Shown one piece after another: positions 18,366 to 31,798 of a DNA stretch of 33,630 nt (its first letter is position 1; each line of letters starts with the position of its first letter). Origin of the DNA: Planctomycetaceae bacterium. Lineage in GTDB: Bacteria > Planctomycetota > Planctomycetia > Pirellulales > UBA1268. The notes under the pieces were generated by a model. The model had not been told where the DNA came from. It searched no databases and saw only the letters and a program-made list of their open reading frames with translations. Location: the NCBI GenBank assembly GCA_027486095.1, contig JAIXPT010000104.1:1-33630 (forward strand), written 5' to 3'. The translations under genes and the position numbers were made by a program.

Positions 18366-19211
18366 ATGGCATGGCAGGGCAGGCGGATGATCGTGGCGGG
18401 CGGCACGGCCGGCTTCGGCCTCGTGCTCGCGCGGCATCTGGCGGGCGCCGGAGCCCGCGTGCTCGTGGTCGGCCGCTCGTCGGCCGGCGTGCGGGCCGCG
18501 CTCGAAGCCTGTGAGCGGGCCGGCGTGCCGACTGATCGCATCCACGGGCTCGCGGCCGATCTGGCCACGGCAGGGGAGGGCGACCGCGTGGCGACTGAGG
18601 CCGTCCGCATCCTCGGCGGCATCGACGACGTCTTCTTCTGCGTCGGTCGCTCGGGCCGGGCCGCGATCCTCGCTGCCTCGCGGGCCACGCTGCAGGAATA
18701 CCTCGACGCCAATCTGCTCGCGGCCATTGAGCTCACGCAGGCCGTGGCCGACGACGTGGCGCAGGCACGCGGGCATCTCGTCTATATCGGCAGCCTGGCC
18801 GGCAAGATCGTGATGCCGTTCATGGGGCCCTATAGCGTGGCCAAGTCGGCGCTCGCGGCCTACGTGGATGCCGTGCGGCTCGAGCTCGCACCGCGCGGCG
18901 CGCATGTCTTGCTCGTGTCGCCCGGCCCGATCCGCCGCGCGGCCGACGACCCTGCCGCCGATCGGGCCGCGGCCCGCTATGCGGCCGAAGCCGCCGCCGC
19001 CGGCCTGCCGCCCGAGGCGGCCATGCCGGGCGGCACGACCACCTTGAAGCAGCTCGACCCAGACGTGCTCGCCAGCCAGATTCTTGCGGCCTGCACGCGC
19101 CGCACGAGCGAGCTTGTCGTGCCGGGGAGGGTGCGGCTGCTCGCGGGCCTGATCGAGTGGTTTCCCGACGCCGGCCGAAGGCTGCTCGCGCGGCTCACGA
19201 CCCGCCGCTAG
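18366..19211 (+). CDS. Short-chain dehydrogenase/reductase
   Basis: The 281-residue protein has the classical SDR layout: an N-terminal nucleotide-binding motif AGGTAGFG (residues 11-18) starting a Rossmann fold, the catalytic Ser143 in YIGSLAGK, and YSVAK with Tyr156 and Lys160. Arg37 in VVGRSS, just after the second strand, is compatible with NADP(H) preference. After the core, a C-terminal extension (LKQLDPDVLASQIL and further helices) resembles the DHRS7-like subgroup with a C-terminal tail, but the substrate is unknown. ATG 18366 begins MAWQGRRMIVAGG; upstream frame is shadow over pyk. The stop overlaps the stop of the convergent asparagine-synthetase-like gene by 17 bases. Confidence 0.9.
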   Translation: MAWQGRRMIVAGGTAGFGLVLARHLAGAGARVLVVGRSSAGVRAALEACERAGVPTDRIHGLAADLATAGEGDRVATEAVRILGGIDDVFFCVGRSGRAAILAASRATLQEYLDANLLAAIELTQAVADDVAQARGHLVYIGSLAGKIVMPFMGPYSVAKSALAAYVDAVRLELAPRGAHVLLVSPGPIRRAADDPAADRAAARYAAEAAAAGLPPEAAMPGGTTTLKQLDPDVLASQILAACTRRTSELVVPGRVRLLAGLIEWFPDAGRRLLARLTTRR

Positions 19212-21042
19212 CAGACTGTGGAACAAGTCGGCCCGGCAGGGCGGGGCGGTCGAGCCAGAGGGCGAGCCCGAGCAACAGCCTGATCGGCCCGCCTTCGTTG
19301 ATCGCGTTTCGAAACCTCGGCTGTGTGTCGGCGCCGGGCAGCAGCCGCTCGACCTCCCCAGCATCGAGAAGCTCGCCGAGCCGTGGGCGCAGGGGCTCGG
19401 CCTCGCGGCGGATGGCCAGCCACGCCGGACGCCGGACGTCGAAGATGCGCTGATAGCGGCGCGGATCACGGCCCCGCACGCGCTGCCAATACCAACGCCG
19501 CGCCGTCCGCTCGAGGGCCGCGCGGCCGCGCTCGAAGAGCGACGCATCGCCACTCTCCAGTGGCCGAAACTGGAAGGAATTTCGATCGAGCGGCAAGGCC
19601 GCAAGATCCGGCCGCCGCCCCCGCAGGATGGCCGCTTCCAGCCGGCGGTGTTCATAGACGCTCACGGGCAGCCCCATCACGGCGGCGAGCAGCCGCCTGT
19701 CGGCCGCGGGCACGAGCGGCCACGCATGAAACGTGGTCCGGTGCAACACTGTCGCGAGGTGGTTGCGCACCCGCTGATCCCAGCGCACGAGGGCCGACTG
19801 CAGGGCGGGCTCGGCAGGCCCCGCCAGGCAGGCCGTGCGCAGGCGCTCGAGCGCCGCGGCGACGAGGGCCTGCCCGTCGGCTCCCAAGAGCGCGGGCAGC
19901 CGCGCCCGCGGCACGCCCCAATTGTTCATAACGCCAAGCAGCGGATCGAATCGCCACTCGCCGGTTGCGGGATCGCGGCCGTTGTTGATGCCGACCGGCT
20001 CGAACACCCAGTCGAAGAGCATCCCCGACCAGTAATATGTGCCCGTCGCGTGGGCCGTCGCCAGGCCATCTGCGAATCCATCCAGGCTCGGTGCAGAGGC
20101 AAGGTGGCTGAACCGCACCGTCTCGCGCACGCGGCCGGGGGCGGCGGCCGGGCTCGATTCGGCCGCCAGCACCTCGACAGGCATGCCGAGCTTCTCAGCC
20201 ACGGCCGTGCCGGCCCGCACCTCGAAATCGCCCGGCTCACCGAGCACGATCGCCCGCGTGGGAATGCCCTCGTCGGCGAGCACTCCCGCCACGAGCCGCG
20301 AATCCATGCCGCCGGAGAGCAGCATCACGGTGTCGGCGCCGGCGGGGCGATGCCGGCGGATCGCCGTCACGAGCTCGTGGTCGAGCCGCCGCGCTGCGTC
20401 GCCAGATGATTCACCGACGGGCGCGGGCCGAGGCACGAATCGCCACGCTTCGACTTCGCGCGGGCCCGCGGCTCCGTCGCGGCGCGTCCATTCCAGGCGG
20501 CGCCCGGTGGGAAGCCTGCGCATGCCGGCGAGCAGCGGGCGGTCGTCGAGCGGGCCGTGCACGAGCAGGATGCCACAGAGCCCGAGGCGGTCGATCCGCG
20601 GCACGAATGCCGGATGCCCGCAGACGGCTTCGGGCGTCGAGCTCACAACGACGGCGCCATCCACCGCGGCATGGTAGAGCGGAAACAGGCCGAATGGATC
20701 GACGGCAACACCGAGCCCGCGCACCGGGTCGAAGGTGACGGCCGCATGGTAGCCATCGCAGACCGCGGCATTCCCCCGGGTGGCGCGGTCGTGAAGATCG
20801 CGCGCTGCGAGCCACATGCCGGCGTCGTCGATCGCATAGCCCACGAGGAGTGCGAACGCGTCGCCCTCGCGAACCATGCTCACCGGGGCCCGTGGCCCGC
20901 AGGCCCACAGGCAGGCCATGTCGCCAGCCTCGGCCACGGCGGTCGTCGTGCCGGGCAGATCGGCCAACAGCGCGCGCATCCTTGCCACCCAGGCCTCGCG
21001 GCGCGGCTGGTTGGCATCGATGACGAGCGCGAGATGGGCCAT
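19195..21042 (-). CDS. Asparagine-synthetase-like PP-loop enzyme without glutaminase cysteine
   Basis: The 615-residue protein has the two-domain layout of AsnB: an N-terminal Ntn-like domain (DPFGLFPLYHA at 115-125, equivalent to the AsnB DRFG.KPLY region) and a C-terminal synthetase domain with the PP-loop SGGMDS (243-248). The N-terminus is MAHLALV, so the Cys2 that glutamine-dependent asparagine synthetases need is missing. Relatives without Cys2, such as beta-lactam synthetase and lasso-peptide cyclases, still use ATP to activate a carboxylate and form an amide from another amine. The gene starts 24 bases after the stop of the PP-loop/pyruvyl transferase gene and is the third gene of that operon, so ATP-driven amide formation on a glycan or its precursor is inferred. 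No precursor peptide or lasso-type protease gene is near. The substrate is unknown. Confidence 0.85.
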   Translation of the reverse strand: MAHLALVIDANQPRREAWVARMRALLADLPGTTTAVAEAGDMACLWACGPRAPVSMVREGDAFALLVGYAIDDAGMWLAARDLHDRATRGNAAVCDGYHAAVTFDPVRGLGVAVDPFGLFPLYHAAVDGAVVVSSTPEAVCGHPAFVPRIDRLGLCGILLVHGPLDDRPLLAGMRRLPTGRRLEWTRRDGAAGPREVEAWRFVPRPAPVGESSGDAARRLDHELVTAIRRHRPAGADTVMLLSGGMDSRLVAGVLADEGIPTRAIVLGEPGDFEVRAGTAVAEKLGMPVEVLAAESSPAAAPGRVRETVRFSHLASAPSLDGFADGLATAHATGTYYWSGMLFDWVFEPVGINNGRDPATGEWRFDPLLGVMNNWGVPRARLPALLGADGQALVAAALERLRTACLAGPAEPALQSALVRWDQRVRNHLATVLHRTTFHAWPLVPAADRRLLAAVMGLPVSVYEHRRLEAAILRGRRPDLAALPLDRNSFQFRPLESGDASLFERGRAALERTARRWYWQRVRGRDPRRYQRIFDVRRPAWLAIRREAEPLRPRLGELLDAGEVERLLPGADTQPRFRNAINEGGPIRLLLGLALWLDRPALPGRLVPQSASGGS

Positions 21043-21066
21043 GGCGTGGTCTTGGTCGGGGTGGCC

Positions 21067-22929
21067 TCACGCGGCGCGGCGCGAGGCCGCGAGGGCTTGG
21101 CGGGCGTCTGCCGCAAAGCGGCAGCCCAGGCCGGCGAGCCAGGTCTCGTGCATCGCGCGGTTCTTGTGATAGGCGTTGGCCACGAGCGTGACATCGCGGC
21201 CCGCATGCAGCCCCGCGATCGCGAAGTGGAGCCGGTCGGTGACGATTCGCCGGTAGTCGGCGGCCAGGGCGAGGTAGGCAGCGGGCGTGGAGCAGAGCCG
21301 CACGGGGTCGCGGGCGAGCCACGGCTTGCGGCCCACACGCTCCCGATCGCGCCGCAGAAACACGCCGAGCTCGTGCGTGGGCCGCGGCGGCTCGGGCCAG
21401 CGGAGACCGAGCGCGAGGTCGGGGGCGAGCAAGCCCGCCGGATGCATCGTCAGGCTTGCGTGTTCGCGCACATACACCCGCGCGAAGCCGCGGTCTTCCG
21501 GCGTCGAAAACGACTGCGGCAGGATCACCACCGGCAGCCCCGTCGAGAGCGCCTCGCCACGGAGCGCGTGGTTGTTCATGTAGCGGGTGCCCATGTTGCC
21601 GCCGCCGCCGAACACGAGCACGTCGCGCCGCGCGTCGCCGCCGGGCTGCCAGAGCGACCAGCGAATGCCATAGTCGGCGAAGAGCTGTGTCATCGCGAGC
21701 TCGATGAGCTCGTCGCCCACGTTGCCAATCGGCCGCACATAGCCCACGTGTTGGCCGCGGAGCGGCTCACAGACGTGTGCGAACGCCTCGGCCCCGAGGA
21801 GTCGCCGCTGCGGCGTGGGAAGGCGCCGTGCGGGGCGGGCTGCCGCGCCCGTGGCGGCTGATGCGGCACCGCTGCGCTCGAGTAGCCGGCGCGTGGCCGC
21901 GGCCACCGGGCCCGAGCGCTGCTGGGCGAGCGCGTGTTCGTAGAAGGGCAAGAGGATCGGCTCCACGGCCGGGACGACGTCAATTGCCGCGGTGAGCCCA
22001 CGCCCGGCCGAAAACCCGGCGAATCGGCCGAGCACACCGCAGGCATCGAGCTCGATCATCGTGCGCACGCACTTTTCGCAGCGGCCGCAGTTGAGCTGCT
22101 GGCCCACGTTCTTCCAGCACACCCGCAGATGCTGCTGCACGAGCGGCTCGGCAGCGATCGCGCGCAGCTTTTCGAGCCGTGTCACGCGGCCGGCCACATG
22201 CTCGATCGCCAGGCGCCGCGAGCCGTGGAGCGGATCGGTGTCGGGCTGGGAACCCACGTCCGGGTGGGCCTGCCCGAGGCCATCCGACGAGGTGAGCAGG
22301 CGGCCGGCCTCGTCGCCCAGCAGATGGCCGACGGCCGCCAGCGCGCCCCCGAAAGACCGCAGCCACGGAGCCGCCTTGTGCAGTGGGTGCCGGCGGAGAT
22401 TCGTCGTGATGATGACCGGGCGGATGCCGATGCCGGCAGCCACCTCGCGCACGAGCCGCTCCACGGCCGCCGCCCGCCGCCGCTCGCGCGGCTTCACATC
22501 GTAGCCGACCACATACACGAGCTTCTCCACCGGCTGTCCGCCGCGGAGGAGCGTATAAAAAGCGTCCACGCCGCCGCTGAAGCAGAGCGCCGTCGCGGTC
22601 GTGTCGGCCGCGGCACGGATGATCGGCATGACGAGCGGCGGCGGTGCATCGGGATACCAGAGCCCGGTGAATGCCGCGGCCAAGGGCGCGAGGTTGCGCG
22701 CCCACACGTCGCACACGGGCGCCTCCAACCGCAGGGCACGGCCAGCGTGCATGGCCGGCACGAGCAGCGCGGAGCCAAACGCCTCGGCGGCCGGAGCGAG
22801 CACGCTGTCGCGCGAGGCGAAGAACACCGTACGGCCATCGACCTGTGCCGAGACATGGCGCCCGTCGCGCCGCGGCCGCCCGATTTCGACGGTGTGGAGC
22901 GGCACGCGGGCAGCGAGCAAGGGCCACAT
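21067..22929 (-). CDS. Fusion of QueC-like PP-loop ATPase and polysaccharide pyruvyl transferase
   Basis: A 620-residue protein whose ATG (22929) lies 4 bases after the stop of the glycosyltransferase gene, indicating translational coupling. Residues 100-300 form a PP-loop ATP-pyrophosphatase domain with SGGVDA at 118-123 and a four-cysteine zinc-type motif C271-x9-C281-x2-C284-x2-C287 like that of QueC (7-cyano-7-deazaguanine synthase). A Pro/Arg-rich linker follows (about 340-390). Residues 395-600 match the polysaccharide pyruvyl transferase family: GNVGDELI (402-409), FGGGGNMG (440-447), then the NNHALRGEAL and VTDRLHFAIAGLHAG stretches. These transferases put pyruvate ketals from phosphoenolpyruvate on sugars of exopolymers. 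The combination in one chain is unusual; I infer modification of a surface polymer. The frame is open upstream to 23487 only as antisense shadow. Confidence 0.85.
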   Translation of the reverse strand: MWPLLAARVPLHTVEIGRPRRDGRHVSAQVDGRTVFFASRDSVLAPAAEAFGSALLVPAMHAGRALRLEAPVCDVWARNLAPLAAAFTGLWYPDAPPPLVMPIIRAAADTTATALCFSGGVDAFYTLLRGGQPVEKLVYVVGYDVKPRERRRAAAVERLVREVAAGIGIRPVIITTNLRRHPLHKAAPWLRSFGGALAAVGHLLGDEAGRLLTSSDGLGQAHPDVGSQPDTDPLHGSRRLAIEHVAGRVTRLEKLRAIAAEPLVQQHLRVCWKNVGQQLNCGRCEKCVRTMIELDACGVLGRFAGFSAGRGLTAAIDVVPAVEPILLPFYEHALAQQRSGPVAAATRRLLERSGAASAATGAAARPARRLPTPQRRLLGAEAFAHVCEPLRGQHVGYVRPIGNVGDELIELAMTQLFADYGIRWSLWQPGGDARRDVLVFGGGGNMGTRYMNNHALRGEALSTGLPVVILPQSFSTPEDRGFARVYVREHASLTMHPAGLLAPDLALGLRWPEPPRPTHELGVFLRRDRERVGRKPWLARDPVRLCSTPAAYLALAADYRRIVTDRLHFAIAGLHAGRDVTLVANAYHKNRAMHETWLAGLGCRFAADARQALAASRRAA

Positions 22930-22933
22930 CGTG

Positions 22934-23815
22934 TCAGGCCACCCGCTGCCGGCGCCGTGCCGGTTCGGCCGCCCGCTGCGGCGGCAGCGGCACGAGAGCG
23001 TGGCCGGCATCCTCTTTGCAGAGGCCCTGCCGGCAGAACGTCGGGCGGTCACCGCGGAGAAAGTATTCACGATTGGCGGTCTGCTCGCCGTTGCGCGCGA
23101 AGCTCGGGGCGGGAGGATGCCAGAGATGGATCGGCGCCGTGCGGTGAAGCACCGAGTGCACCCGCACGCCGATCCGCTCCAGCCGCTCCTGCAGGTCACG
23201 GTCTTCGAGCCCCCAGCCCACGAACTGCTCGTCGAAGCCATTGATGCGTTCGAGGTCGCTCCGCCACACGCCGATGTTGTTGCCCGAGAGCCGGGGCCGC
23301 ATCGGCATCCGCAGCCACTCGTAGGCCTGCGCCCGCCGGGCCTTCCACCACATCCGGCGCCGCTCTCCCGCCGCGATTCGGCACATGCCGGAGCCGTCTG
23401 CCGCCGCCGCGAGGTCGATGCTCGCGGAGCCGGCGGCATCGAGCCTGAAACAGTCGCTGCCGACGACCCGCCCGGGCCGCCGCTCATCGAGATGGATCCG
23501 CAGGTGGTCGCGCGGCAGAAGACAGTCGCCGTCGGTGAACAGAAGATAGGCCGCGGTCGAGGCGGCGGCCCCCTCGTTGCGGCAGCGGGCGAGCTGGAAG
23601 CCGCGATGCTCGTGCGTGGTGAACGTAAGCGGGAAGCTCACCCGACGGGCCGTCGCGGCGACGAGCGGCAAGGTCTCGTCGCGCGAGCCGTCGTCGGTCA
23701 CGACCACCTCGAACCGGCCGTCCACCCCGCGTTGGGCGGCGAGCGACGCCAGGCAGCGCGCCAAGTGCTGCGGCCGCTCGAAGGTCGAAATGATGATCGC
23801 GATCTCTCTCACCAC
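22934..23815 (-). CDS. Family 2 glycosyltransferase with galactosyltransferase-type C-terminus
   Basis: About 293 residues from GTG 23815, which has GGGGGG just upstream; the frame extends to GTG 23896 with poorer start context (320 residues). The N-terminal half is a GT-A fold of family 2: IAIIISTFERPQHLARCL, VVVTDDGSRDET and the metal-binding LFTDGDCLLP (a DxD motif, DGD). The second half has the GT7C-like pattern SGNNIGVWRSDLERINGFDE with GWGLEDRDLQERL, as found in galactosyl- and chondroitin-type polymerising transferases. The enzyme therefore transfers a sugar from a nucleotide sugar to a growing glycan at the cytoplasmic side; donor and acceptor cannot be told. First gene of a three-gene operon with the PP-loop/pyruvyl transferase fusion (4-base gap) and the asparagine-synthetase-like gene. 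Confidence 0.88.
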   Translation of the reverse strand: MVREIAIIISTFERPQHLARCLASLAAQRGVDGRFEVVVTDDGSRDETLPLVAATARRVSFPLTFTTHEHRGFQLARCRNEGAAASTAAYLLFTDGDCLLPRDHLRIHLDERRPGRVVGSDCFRLDAAGSASIDLAAAADGSGMCRIAAGERRRMWWKARRAQAYEWLRMPMRPRLSGNNIGVWRSDLERINGFDEQFVGWGLEDRDLQERLERIGVRVHSVLHRTAPIHLWHPPAPSFARNGEQTANREYFLRGDRPTFCRQGLCKEDAGHALVPLPPQRAAEPARRRQRVA

Positions 23816-24145: not shown

Positions 24146-24571
24146 TCAACCGACCGCGAGCCAGTTGTCGGTTTTCAGCCCTGGGACGCGATCGAACTCC
24201 TTGGTGTTGTCCGTAACGAGCACGGCATCGAGCGACTGGGCGTGGGCGGCGATCATCATGTCGTACGGGCCGATCAGCCGCCCGCGTTTTTCGAGGTGAG
24301 CCCGGATCGGGCCGTACAGCCGCGCGGCGGCGGCATCAAAGGGGAGGACTCGAAACCCCGACACGAGGCGATCGAACACCCGTCTGTTGTGCTGCCGTCG
24401 TCCGCTCTTCGCGATTCCGTATTCGATTTCAGCGACCACGACCGCCGAGAGAAGGATCGCATCGGCGGGGATGCCCTCCAGCCGGTTCGCGAGCCCGGGC
24501 CGCTGCTTGCTGAGTGCGATCAGGATGTTCGTATCGAGGAGAAACTGCACGTCATCGATCCAGATCGACAT
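24146..24571 (-). CDS. VapC-like PIN-domain toxin
   Basis: A 141-residue PIN-domain ribonuclease from ATG 24571, overlapping the antitoxin stop by 20 bases; a GTG at 24550, one base after that stop, would give 134 residues and the usual start just before LLDTN. Conserved acidic residues are visible: Asp in LLDTNILIAL, Glu in AEIEYGI, Asp in GPYDMMIAAHA and Asp in LVTDNTKEF. VapC toxins cut tRNA or rRNA when free of antitoxin. The gene follows the Phd/YefM-type antitoxin on the same strand, so it is the toxin of a type II pair. Target RNA unknown. Confidence 0.93.
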   Translation of the reverse strand: MSIWIDDVQFLLDTNILIALSKQRPGLANRLEGIPADAILLSAVVVAEIEYGIAKSGRRQHNRRVFDRLVSGFRVLPFDAAAARLYGPIRAHLEKRGRLIGPYDMMIAAHAQSLDAVLVTDNTKEFDRVPGLKTDNWLAVG

Positions 24572-24788
24572 CATCGAGCGGCAGTTCGACGATCCGCGGC
24601 AGATCGAGACCACCCAGCGTCCAAGCCGCCCGGAACACATCGACCGCGGCACGCGTCGTGCGCGGTTCTGGCACAAGTCGAGCCACCGGCTTGCCACGCC
24701 GCGCGATCACGATCTCCTCCCCGGCCTCGACGCGTTCCACGAGCGCGGAAAGGTGGGCTTTGGCCTCTGCGATTGCAACCCGTTTCAT
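24552..24788 (-). CDS. Phd/YefM-family antitoxin
   Basis: A 78-residue antitoxin that binds and blocks the neighbouring PIN toxin and represses the operon. The N-terminal fold VAIAEAKAHLSALVERV and the conserved GEEIVIARRGKPVARLVP are those of the Phd/YefM family; the C-terminal part (after about residue 50) would wrap the toxin. Start ATG 24788 has GGAGGTGG just before it. A further ATG at 24833 would add MTNLVITSGLMSEVA but lies inside the palindrome described upstream and at the expected transcript start, so I reject it. The stop is followed directly by the toxin, which overlaps by 20 bases. Confidence 0.93.
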   Translation of the reverse strand: MKRVAIAEAKAHLSALVERVEAGEEIVIARRGKPVARLVPEPRTTRAAVDVFRAAWTLGGLDLPRIVELPLDDVDLDR

Positions 24789-24815
24789 GGCCACCTCCGA
24801 CATCAAGCCGCTCGT

Positions 24816-24834
24816 AATGACCAAATTGGTCATT
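24816..24834 (-). promoter_or_regulatory. Operator-like palindrome upstream of the antitoxin
   Basis: AATGACCA and TGGTCATT pair around AAT, an 8-bp inverted repeat, 28 bases before the antitoxin ATG and straddling the predicted transcript start. Phd/YefM antitoxins are known to repress their own operon by binding such palindromes, so autoregulation is inferred. Confidence 0.65.
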
Positions 24835-28645: not shown

Positions 28646-31600
28646 ATGGACAGGCTTTTTTCCGCAATGGAGGCAGTGGCGGTCATGAATCCGGATTCCG
28701 TTTTTCGGCGGCTGAGCAGGATGCTTACCCGCGGCATCGTGGTGGTGACAATCTGCATCAAGCTTTCTTGCCTCACAGCCCCAGCATCTGCGCAGATCAA
28801 CGGTGTCAACGACAACGTCGTCGCTGCGAATCTGAATAACTCCGGCTTCTACACGCTGCCCACGATCACCGGTCTCGGCGGCGATCTCACCGTCGAAGGC
28901 TGGGTGTACCTGAGCTCGTATGCCGGCTGGGGCCGCATCGCTGACCTCGGGGGCGGTGAGAACAGCAACAACATTCTGCTTACGACAGTCGGGACGACCG
29001 GGCGGCCTGCGTTCAGTGTGCGCTCCGGCAGCACGGAGATCGGTTTGATTCAGGGAGCCAACGCCCTTGGCACCAACGCCTGGGTGCACGTGGCCGGTGT
29101 CATTCAGACCGACCGCACGATGCGGCTCTACGTGAACGGCACCGAGGTGGCGACGGGCACGGCCACCGGCGATGTTCCCATCGTGAACCGCACGAGCAAC
29201 TACCTCGGCAAAAGCAATTGGTCGGCCGACTCGCTCTTGAACGGCGCCGTGGCCGACGTCCGCGTGTGGAACACTGCCCGCACGCAGGCCGAGATCCAAA
29301 ACAACATGGACGTGGGCTCGGTCACGGGCCCGACGACGGGGCTCGTGGCCGCCTATGCCTTCGGTGCGACGGGCGCAGCGCCCACGACCGACCTCAGCGG
29401 CAATGGCTACACGGCCACGCAGAACGGCAACATTCTCTATTCGAAGTTCGATACGGGCACGCTCACCGCGGGGGGATTCTCCGGTGCAAACACCTCGCTC
29501 AACGTCTCGCAGGGCACGCTCAATTTGACGGGCAACAATCCCGTCCGGGGCGTGACGGTGAATACCGCTGCGATCACGCAGGGAAGCGGATCCGTCACGA
29601 CGTCGCTGCTCGGCGAAGGCGCATTTCAGGTGGGCGTGTCCGCGGGGCAGTCCGGCACCTACACGCTCACGGGCGGCACGATCTCAGTGAACAATGACGG
29701 CCAGGTGCAAATCGGCGCCTCCGGCAACGGCACGATGAACCAGTCTGGCGGATCCCTGACCGGCACGGAGTGGATCGTCGTCGGCCGCTATGCGGGCAGC
29801 ACCGGTATCTACAACCTCTCGGGCGGCATGCTCAATCAGACCGATCCGAACACGAAGCTGATCATCGGCGAGGCGGCCGCGGGCACGCTCACCGTGAGCG
29901 GCAACGGCGTGGTCAACTCGGCAGGTGGCCTTTCGCTGAGCCACGCAGCGGGGGGTGTCGGCACGGTGAATCTCGCCGGCGGTACGATCTCGACGGTGAG
30001 CGTGGTCAAGGGCAGCGGCGGCACAGCCACGTTCAACTTCAACGGTGGCACGCTCAAGGCAACGGGCAACACCTCCGCTTTCATGACCGGACTGAATGCC
30101 GCGGTGCTGCAGGACGGAGGTGGCACGCTCGATGACAGCGGCTTCACGATCACTGTGGGCCAGGCCTTCACCGGCACGGGCGGCCTTACGAAGACGGGCG
30201 CCGGTCGGGTTACTCTCTCCGGCAACAACAGTCACGCCGGCACAACGACGGTCAACGACGGCACCCTTCAGTTAGGTGCTGGATCGAGCGACCTCCGAAA
30301 CAACGCCAGCGACTTCGTGATCAACAACGGTTCCACGCTCACCTTCGGCGGCACCCGGTTCGACCTCAGTGATCAATTCACCGGAGGCCAGCGAACCATT
30401 ACTTTCGGGGCGAGTGGTGGCAGCAAGCTCGATGCTCAAAATGTAAACGTCGTCCATTGGGACGGCACCACCTACCGCACAGCGGGGGGCAGCCAGAACG
30501 CGATCCTCGGCGCGGTGCTCAACCTCAACGCCGGGGCCGTCGCCACCCTCGACGTGACCCGTGGCACTGATGCCGAGAGCGATCTGCTAGTGAGCGCTGA
30601 CTTCGGCAACGCCGGCTCGATCGTCAAGACCGGCAACGGCATCGCGACCTTTGCGGGCAACAACAGCTACACCGGCACCACCACGATCAGCCAAGGCACG
30701 CTGCAGGTCGGTGCCGGCGGCACGACCGGCACGCTCGGCACGGGCAACGTCGTCACCAACGCCACGCTCGCGTTCAACCGCTCGAACGCGATCACGGTGG
30801 CGAATGCGATCTCGGGCTCGGGCACGCTCGTGCAGCGCGGCCTCGGCACGACCACGCTCACGGCCCAGACCACGCACACCGGCGGCACGATCGTGGAGAC
30901 GGGCACGCTTCTGCTCTCGGGGTCCAACCGGCTGGGCCCGGCGACGTCGGCGACGGTGAACTCGCGCGGCACGCTCCGCCTCGACGGCGACCAGACGCTC
31001 GCGAGCATCGGTGGCTCGGGCGCGATCACGTTTGGCTCGAGCGCCAACGGCTACACGCTCACGACCGGCTCCGTGAGCGGCACCTTCTCGGGCTCGATCT
31101 CGGGCAATGGCTACCTCACGAAGGTCGGCCCGGGCACGCTCACGCTCACCGGCTCGAACTCCTACACCGGCGCCACGGCGATCAATGCCGGCGAGCTCAA
31201 GCTCAATGGCTCGCTCGCGAGCGGCTCGCTCGCCCTCGCGGCCGGCGCCACGCTCTCCGGCACCGGCTCGTTCTCCGGCGACGCCACGATCGCCGGTGCC
31301 CACACTCCCGGCAACTCGCCCGGCATCCAATCGATCGGCGGCAACCTCACCTATTCCGCCGGGGCGAGCGTCACCTGGGAACTTGCCGACAACACCGCCG
31401 CCCTGGCGGACCGTGGCGTCGACTTCGACGGCATCAACGTCGGTGGCAACCTCGCCTTCGCCGGCACGTCGCTCCTGAACCTCGCCTTCAACGGCGCCGG
31501 CAGCGTCGTCAACTGGAACGACTCCTTCTGGACCACCGACAAGACCGGCGCGAACGGCTGGCTCGTCTACGACGTCACGGGCTCGACCACGGGCCTCTCG

Positions 31601-31798
31601 GGCCTCGCGGTCAGCGGCACCACCTGGCTCGACGCCGCCGGCAACTCGCTCACCGATATCCGCCCTGACGCCTCCTTCGCCCTCGAGCAGGTCGGCAGCG
31701 ACGTCTACCTCACGTTCGTCGCCGTCCCGGAGCCCTCCTCCATCGTGCTCGTCGGCATCGGCCTCGCCGGCCTCGCGCTCGCCCGCCGACGCACGTAG
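28646..31798 (+). CDS. PEP-CTERM protein with LamG-like domain and beta-strand repeats
   Basis: About 1050 residues from ATG 28646 (CCAGGAGA directly before it); ATG 28685, with GGAGG 11 bases before it, is a close alternative. A signal peptide follows (IVVVTICIKLSCLTAPASAQ). Residues about 60-255 are a LamG/concanavalin-like fold (GDLTVEGWVYLSS, WVHVAGVIQTDRTMRLYVNG, LLNGAVADVRVWNTART), which often binds carbohydrates or surfaces. The rest has autotransporter-associated repeats (GGLTKTGAGRVTLSGNNSHAG, LTKVGPGTLTLTGSNSY) and the GDATIAGAHTPGNSPGI block, and ends in VPEPSSIVLVGIGLAGLALARRRT, a PEP-CTERM sorting signal. Sections match the giant protein at 3327-10265 (NFNGG.LK with AFMTGL, SQGTLQVG, PGNSPGI). 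The last 220 bases recur at 32545-32764. Confidence 0.92.
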   Translation: MDRLFSAMEAVAVMNPDSVFRRLSRMLTRGIVVVTICIKLSCLTAPASAQINGVNDNVVAANLNNSGFYTLPTITGLGGDLTVEGWVYLSSYAGWGRIADLGGGENSNNILLTTVGTTGRPAFSVRSGSTEIGLIQGANALGTNAWVHVAGVIQTDRTMRLYVNGTEVATGTATGDVPIVNRTSNYLGKSNWSADSLLNGAVADVRVWNTARTQAEIQNNMDVGSVTGPTTGLVAAYAFGATGAAPTTDLSGNGYTATQNGNILYSKFDTGTLTAGGFSGANTSLNVSQGTLNLTGNNPVRGVTVNTAAITQGSGSVTTSLLGEGAFQVGVSAGQSGTYTLTGGTISVNNDGQVQIGASGNGTMNQSGGSLTGTEWIVVGRYAGSTGIYNLSGGMLNQTDPNTKLIIGEAAAGTLTVSGNGVVNSAGGLSLSHAAGGVGTVNLAGGTISTVSVVKGSGGTATFNFNGGTLKATGNTSAFMTGLNAAVLQDGGGTLDDSGFTITVGQAFTGTGGLTKTGAGRVTLSGNNSHAGTTTVNDGTLQLGAGSSDLRNNASDFVINNGSTLTFGGTRFDLSDQFTGGQRTITFGASGGSKLDAQNVNVVHWDGTTYRTAGGSQNAILGAVLNLNAGAVATLDVTRGTDAESDLLVSADFGNAGSIVKTGNGIATFAGNNSYTGTTTISQGTLQVGAGGTTGTLGTGNVVTNATLAFNRSNAITVANAISGSGTLVQRGLGTTTLTAQTTHTGGTIVETGTLLLSGSNRLGPATSATVNSRGTLRLDGDQTLASIGGSGAITFGSSANGYTLTTGSVSGTFSGSISGNGYLTKVGPGTLTLTGSNSYTGATAINAGELKLNGSLASGSLALAAGATLSGTGSFSGDATIAGAHTPGNSPGIQSIGGNLTYSAGASVTWELADNTAALADRGVDFDGINVGGNLAFAGTSLLNLAFNGAGSVVNWNDSFWTTDKTGANGWLVYDVTGSTTGLSGLAVSGTTWLDAAGNSLTDIRPDASFALEQVGSDVYLTFVAVPEPSSIVLVGIGLAGLALARRRT

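Follow-up and report, generated by a model that had tools for sequence, protein, structure and literature searches.

A stretch of 33,630 nucleotides from a planctomycete metagenome-assembled genome (MAG; Planctomycetaceae bacterium, GCA_027486095.1, contig JAIXPT010000104.1, positions 1 to 33,630; the whole stretch is called the window here) carries a cassette of four parts: a glycosyltransferase (GT), a PP-loop ATPase domain related to QatC and QueC, a polysaccharide pyruvyl transferase (PSPT) and an AsnB-like protein. The PP-loop domain is fused to the PSPT, and we refer to this half of the fusion (residues 1-345) as PPQ. That the four parts form a functional module is well supported by their recurrence in other genomes. 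The module is a new one made from known kinds of enzyme, among them a QatC-like family not described before; its linkage is well supported, and its chemistry we infer from families, folds and motifs. Our best reading, held tentatively, is that of a self-contained unit for glycan decoration, in which a sugar would be added, ketal-pyruvylated and then amidated on a carboxylate, possibly the pyruvate's own.

The cassette consists of three consecutive open reading frames (ORFs) on the minus strand, with intergenic gaps of 4 and 24 bases. Its parts are listed below, with the basis of each assignment in parentheses.

22934..23815, minus strand: GT2-family glycosyltransferase with a Glyco_transf_7C segment carrying a GWGLED motif (Pfam)
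21067..22929, minus strand: PPQ-PSPT fusion of 620 amino acids (ORF and Pfam)
21895..22929, minus strand: PPQ domain, a QatC/QueC-like PP-loop ATPase, fusion residues 1-345 (AlphaFold2 model, VIA-align, motifs)
21067..21894, minus strand: PSPT domain (PF04230), fusion residues ~403-585, behind an Ala/Pro-rich linker (Pfam and motifs of the phosphoenolpyruvate (PEP) site)
19195..21042, minus strand: AsnB-like protein of 615 amino acids, with an Ntn-type N-terminal domain lacking the catalytic Cys and a synthetase domain with SGGMDSR (Pfam and AlphaFold2 model)

An earlier reading made from the sequence alone had given these gene positions and gaps and the SGGVDA and four-Cys motifs of the fusion, and analysis of ORFs, Pfam matches and alignments reproduced them to the base and the residue. 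The GTG start of the GT2 gene at 23815 agrees with the N-termini of its orthologues. Its product matched Glycos_transf_2 (3.4e-17; 63.3 bits against a cut-off of 23.3) and Glyco_transf_7C (2.6e-12).

Genes in the compared loci were called with our own script, and the loci were scored with PPQ, PSPT and AsnB-like hidden Markov models (HMMs). In a search of relatives, the PPQ-PSPT fusion was present in 10 planctomycete MAGs (the window and nine further), which belong to one family and three genera. Other MAGs of the family showed the order GT, fusion, AsnB-like gene, each part being 48-74% identical to its counterpart. The GT gene was upstream of the fusion in every sufficiently long contig (60-69% identity for the orthologues directly upstream), and the AsnB-like gene was downstream in all but one (L072). 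The single chain joining a PP-loop domain to a pyruvyl transferase, as the sequence-only reading described it, is therefore real: 10 independent MAGs, together with unfused neighbours elsewhere, ruled out an assembly artefact as its source. The window sequence is free of N.

The set of genes was also found without the fusion. The AsnB-like query recovered a planctomycete of another order, in which the GT, AsnB-like, PPQ and PSPT genes are four separate neighbours with 54, 33, 37 and 52% identity to the window, respectively; the GT and PSPT genes there are on the opposite strand. Adjacent AsnB-like, PPQ and PSPT genes were found in Omnitrophota (L140), Gammaproteobacteria (L126) and Thiobacillus (L134), and PPQ next to PSPT also in culturable strains of Thauera, Demequina and Aliagarivorans. 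With orthologues of the window set aside, 65 loci remained, 28 of them with a PSPT gene; in 19 the PSPT gene adjoined the PPQ gene and shared its strand. Permutation of the PSPT positions gave an expectation of 5.2 adjacent cases, and the maximum in 20,000 rounds was 15. Among 120 operonic PPQ neighbours in about 50 loci, PF04230 was the commonest family (18), followed by GT2 (12); methyltransferases, Asn_synthase proteins (6), SDF symporters (5) and Mur ligases (5) were also recurrent.

Pairwise fusions were of three kinds: PPQ-PSPT, GT-PPQ and GT-PSPT. Besides the window type, a PPQ-PSPT fusion of very different sequence was found in L062. A GT-PPQ fusion in L078 has a PSPT gene upstream, and a GT-PSPT fusion in L119 has a PPQ gene downstream. 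On a quick tree of PPQ, the link to PSPT changed 11 times, at least 4 of these changes being forced by well-supported branches, so the link does not go back to a single inherited event. The sequence-only reading had proposed a search for the same fusion and gene order elsewhere, and had taken a random order among relatives as grounds for giving up its view. That condition, as it was put, does not fit the case: the order is indeed shuffled, but the same genes stay together through changes of order, strand and fusion, which strengthens the functional link.

The PPQ half had no Pfam or NCBIfam match of its own, PF06508 (QueC) included. It carries SGGVDA at 118-123 and C271-x9-C281-x2-C284-x2-C287. 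In GTDB genomes, 494 relatives were detected, and the 80 best came from Planctomycetota, Acidobacteriota, Gemmatimonadota, Verrucomicrobiota, Melainabacteria, Actinomycetota, Pseudomonadota and others. In an alignment of 74 members the four cysteines and N280 were invariant, D122 and D144 were kept in 73, and D232 was kept in 71. The zinc-type site, C(x)9CxxCxxC, is one residue longer than the published QueC spacing, C(x)8CxxCxxC. The QueC substrate motifs YxQxHxxE and YPDC were not found in the alignment, where the region reads [W/V]GS[H/Q]Pxx-DP. PF06508 was weakly matched by 11 of the 74 members (best 2.8e-06), and the family had further weak profile matches to asparagine synthase, LarE and QatC. 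A profile of the family had no match among PDB sequences. The QatC HMMs of PADLOC and NCBIfam did not match the window PPQ (best among relatives, E 0.0086), and the PADLOC defence families had no match in the window, one relative reaching E 0.019.

Kinship became apparent at the level of structure. The AlphaFold2 model of PPQ had a mean pLDDT of 93. Foldseek alone gave only hits with E > 0.05, and structural relatives appeared only with VIA-align. The top match was QatC (9y01; Z 15.0, 4.8 Å, 292 residues, model residues 10-345), followed by QueC (Z 12.1), Cap9 (Z 11.1) and LarE (Z 9.9), with ThiI also in the range of Z ~9-10. Of QatC, QueC, Cap9 and LarE, only QatC covered the N-terminal extension of PPQ. 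A profile alignment with planctomycete QatC was weak and spanned residues 60-299 (E 1.7e-4). The alignment with QueC by hhalign was weak locally and stronger when forced to be global; residue equivalence in the substrate loop is therefore approximate. QatC, from the qatABCD anti-phage system (PDB 9y01/9y02), thus resembles PPQ in its QueC-type PP-loop core, four-Cys zinc-type site, N-terminal extension, length and loss of the YPDC-type nucleobase motif. It differs in Cys spacing (x19, against the QueC-like x9 of PPQ), and PPQ differs in its neighbours, which are GT2, PSPT and AsnB-like genes; no qatA, qatB or qatD was seen in the window. QueC shares with PPQ the PP-loop and the C-x8/9-C-x2-C-x2-C pattern, whereas PPQ lacks YxQxHxxE and YPDC and has an added N-terminal extension of ~105 residues. 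The description "QueC-like" in the sequence-only reading thus holds for the fold, but QatC, with which PPQ has the N-terminal extension in common, is the better match. We conclude that PPQ is a widespread, unnamed and previously undescribed QatC-like family.

For the PSPT half, PF04230 matched residues 403-585 (3.9e-10; 40.6 bits against a cut-off of 25.3), and phmmer gave a match to WbbZ (6x1l). The motifs VRE, DRLH and YHKN of the PEP site are kept in the window protein and its orthologues. They correspond to R148, R306/H308 and K328 of CsaB, for which R148, H308 and K328 are described as PEP-site residues (PMC10435577); the equivalence is by motif, not structure. The window PSPT thus shares PF04230 and the R, (R)LH and K of the PEP site with the ketal pyruvyl transferases CsaB, Pvg1p and WbbZ, and differs from them in being fused behind a PP-loop domain. 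The call of a pyruvyl transferase was borne out by the family match and these residues, and the protein is probably a ketal pyruvyl transferase acting from PEP. The PEP-site motifs are incomplete in some of the PSPT proteins that accompany PPQ elsewhere (Pseudomonas, L078, L109).

The AsnB-like protein matched Pfam weakly (Asn_synthase, 2.9e-05), and no NCBIfam equivalog matched its subfamily. Its AlphaFold2 model (pLDDT 87) aligned over the full length with TsnB9 hydroxyamidotransferase (Z 31.7), AsnB (Z 31.3) and beta-lactam synthetase (Z 29). SGGxDSR was invariant in 12 of 12 aligned relatives. The Cys after the initial Met was absent in all 12, which start with MA or MT, and also in L183, which starts with MAH. 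With this nucleophile lost, as in beta-lactam synthetase, the protein would obtain no glutamine-derived ammonia from its own domain. The assignment as AsnB-like therefore stands for the fold and SGGxDSR but does not extend to the use of glutamine as by AsnB. The subfamily differs from AsnB, beta-lactam synthetase and TsnB9 in a divergent C-terminal half and is rare: the AsnB-like query by itself retrieved just one other genome from 392 planctomycete genomes, and a search of 146 relatives of the Omnitrophota genome found no member.

How these enzymes could work together may be outlined from their families, folds and motifs, which underlie every chemical step given here. The GT2 protein, judged by its family, would extend an existing glycan, at the surface or linked to a lipid, by a sugar. 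The PSPT half would use PEP to attach pyruvate to this sugar in a cyclic ketal whose carboxylate stays free. The PPQ half would bind ATP, adenylate a carboxylate and couple it to an amine, giving an amide. The carboxylate of the pyruvate ketal would be the most economical target, and a likely one because the fusion and the repeated independent pairing with PSPT would otherwise lack an explanation; a uronate, or an amino-acid or amino-sugar substituent, is also possible. The AsnB-like protein, as a second PP-loop ligase without glutaminase activity, may either make the amine-bearing partner or form a second amide bond with a nucleophile other than glutamine. The fold relatives bear on the proposed amide: for QatC, QueC and Cap9, activation of a carboxylate that an amine then attacks is known or has been proposed, and TsnB9, AsnB and beta-lactam synthetase are amide-forming enzymes. 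The Asn_synthase proteins and Mur ligases recurrent beside PPQ, which also form amides, point the same way. We found no paper that treats a pyruvyl transferase and a PP-loop protein together, and nothing on point about QueC-type or asparagine-synthase proteins in exopolysaccharide clusters. A survey of QueC mentions neither polysaccharide nor pyruvyl (PMC13329287).

The flanks of the cassette vary among genomes by inspection (a translation factor, a gluQRS-like gene, an acetate-kinase-like gene and others), so the cassette stands alone, outside any polysaccharide locus. For this reason it looks more like a unit for decoration than a complete exopolymer operon. The surface-glycan operon proposed in the sequence-only reading survives in part: the four parts are linked across phyla, but they probably do not make up an operon for a whole exopolymer. 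In Pseudomonas neustonica and P. kuykendallii, the PPQ and PSPT genes lie between genes for Kdo/WaaP kinases, heptosyltransferases and a carbamoyltransferase, and this position in the core region of lipopolysaccharide (LPS) supports a glycan setting for the pair. The lipooligosaccharide of P. stutzeri OX1, a strain not established as a carrier of PPQ, bears two pyruvate ketals and a carbamoyl group (PMC6801904). Two PPQ genes, together with GT and PSPT genes, were seen in the LPS-core region of P. neustonica, P. kuykendallii and a gammaproteobacterial MAG (L129:5873-16228, L146:3426-11755 and L144), flanked by WaaP-type kinases and a carbamoyltransferase, and two of these three loci also contain a Mur-ligase-like protein.

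Several observations weigh against our reading. About half of the PPQ loci have no PSPT nearby, and the neighbours are methyltransferases, dicarboxylate symporters and beta-keto-acid cleavage enzymes (BKACE). Pyruvate ketals can therefore not be the sole substrates of the PPQ family, and members that occur without PSPT must act on something else. The PP-loop in the window is SGGVDA and not SGGVDS (S in 63 and D in 73 of 74 relatives). In the orthologous cassette of L072 (L072:3590-4567), a Sulfotransfer_3 protein occupies the AsnB-like position. Because the cassette lies outside a polysaccharide locus, its acceptor is only putatively a glycan, judged from the GT2 and PF04230 assignments. No biochemical work on any PPQ protein was found in the literature, and we know of no report of an amide of a pyruvate ketal. 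The OX1 source mentions no amide on its ketals (PMC6801904), again with the proviso on PPQ in that strain.

PPQ and the AsnB-like protein might instead act on another carboxylate of the same glycan, converting a uronic acid to a uronamide or modifying an amino-acid substituent on an amino sugar, with pyruvylation as a separate event. The many PPQ loci without PSPT would fit this explanation, as would the Mur ligases and Asn_synthase proteins recurrent beside PPQ, and AsnB-type amidotransferases are discussed alongside uronic-acid sugars in a paper on the Wbp/Vim pathway (PMC7468200). By itself it leaves the frequent PPQ-PSPT adjacency and at least two fusions unexplained, and there are no sugar-nucleotide or uronate enzymes among the cassette genes; we regard it as doubtful, though deserving serious consideration. 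The near-complete fold match to QatC and the QatC profile alignment could also mean that PPQ is a conjugating enzyme of the QatC/Cap9 type, coupling an amine of the glycan or of a protein to carboxy-deazaguanine or another activated acid. In QueC and Cap9, a Tyr/Asp pair reads the deazaguanine (PMC13279940), and this pair is missing from the PPQ alignment. Neither QueC nor QueD, nor QueE above its cut-off, was detected in two Parafrankia genomes and one Demequina genome with adjacent PPQ and PSPT genes, or in one Nocardioides genome with PPQ. Controls, too, rarely gave a QueE score above the cut-off, and two Pseudomonas genomes that have QueC were missed by the QueD model, so these pathway negatives are suggestive rather than strict. 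No small QatB-like partner was seen beside PPQ, and such conjugation seems to us improbable. The window's genome carries a separate, true QueC. With the Tyr/Asp motif missing and no detectable deazaguanine pathway in some hosts, a deazaguanine substrate and a preQ0-like nitrile product are unlikely for PPQ. Of the "amide or nitrile-like modification" suggested from sequence, the amide thus remains plausible, but the nitrile is unsupported.

LarE and ThiI also matched the PP-loop core, which would be expected if PPQ, like LarE, TtuA or ThiI, transferred sulfur and gave a thioamide or thioacid on the glycan. This is very improbable: the invariant C-x9-C-x2-C-x2-C is a structural zinc pattern, unlike the three-Cys [4Fe-4S] of LarE (PMC13329287), and both QatC and QueC outscore LarE and ThiI. 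The Sulfotransfer_3 protein mentioned above represents unrelated chemistry. Equally hard to credit is that chance or horizontal transfer brought ordinary, unrelated sugar genes together within a single lineage. All fused copies of the window type are within one planctomycete family and the AsnB-like subfamily occurs in only 2 of 392 planctomycete genomes sampled, but the unfused clusters in other orders and phyla, the three kinds of pairwise fusion and the permutation test contradict this explanation.

PPQ was also seen in other settings. A subgroup without PSPT is paired with SDF sodium:dicarboxylate symporters or BKACE (L079:8953-14017, L091:8947-11369, L084:4502-7750, L101:8971-12045), so that some PPQ proteins may act on small acids. 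Mur-ligase-like proteins, another amide-forming partner, lie directly beside PPQ in Pirellulaceae, Verrucomicrobia and Pseudomonas (L096:8966-10327, L118:1223-5049, L129:13059-14381). Tandem PPQ paralogues and PPQ-PPQ fusions are frequent (L109:8935-12764, L115:8938-12752, L116:7537-11496, L128), which suggests dimers or an active/inactive pair. A second PPQ in a same-genus genome (L020:8963-10858) has an N-terminal region of ~300 residues that is sulfotransferase-like and has no Pfam match. Nine weak relatives are on plasmids, every one annotated as a hypothetical protein, and six contigs filed as viral in IMG/VR (L184-L189; the viral status is a database label) encode relatives with 25-36% identity.

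Around the cassette, an SDR oxidoreductase gene (18384..19211, plus strand; adh_short 4e-31) is convergent to it and was treated as flank, no SDR gene having been seen to adjoin the cassette in relatives. Just upstream of the cassette, at 24146-24833, are a gene for a VapC-type PIN toxin (NCBIfam NF047863, above cut-off) and, upstream of it, a small ORF that may be its antitoxin. A surface protein of 1050 amino acids, encoded at 28646-31798, combines a laminin-G-like domain with passenger-associated repeats and a PEP-CTERM motif. Rfam and tRNA scans of the window gave no matches.

On many bacterial surface polymers, charge and recognition are governed by pyruvate ketals, for which we know of no amidating step. 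The multi-phylum PP-loop family described here, linked to pyruvyl transferases and with QatC as its nearest structural relative, is a concrete target in the search for such a step. If the reading is true, the amide of a ketal carboxylate would be a glycan modification not described so far, to our knowledge. A broader proposition, which we consider unlikely as a whole, is that this family of QatC-like ligases works on surface glycans and not on deazaguanine or proteins, that it here amidates, or links to an amine, the carboxylate of a sugar-bound pyruvate ketal, and that the QatC defence enzyme may have descended from it. The substrate of QatC itself is named as an open question in the paper on that enzyme (PMC13279940). 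A sister family linked to glycans, from which that nucleobase motif has likewise gone, gives a hint on where to search for it.

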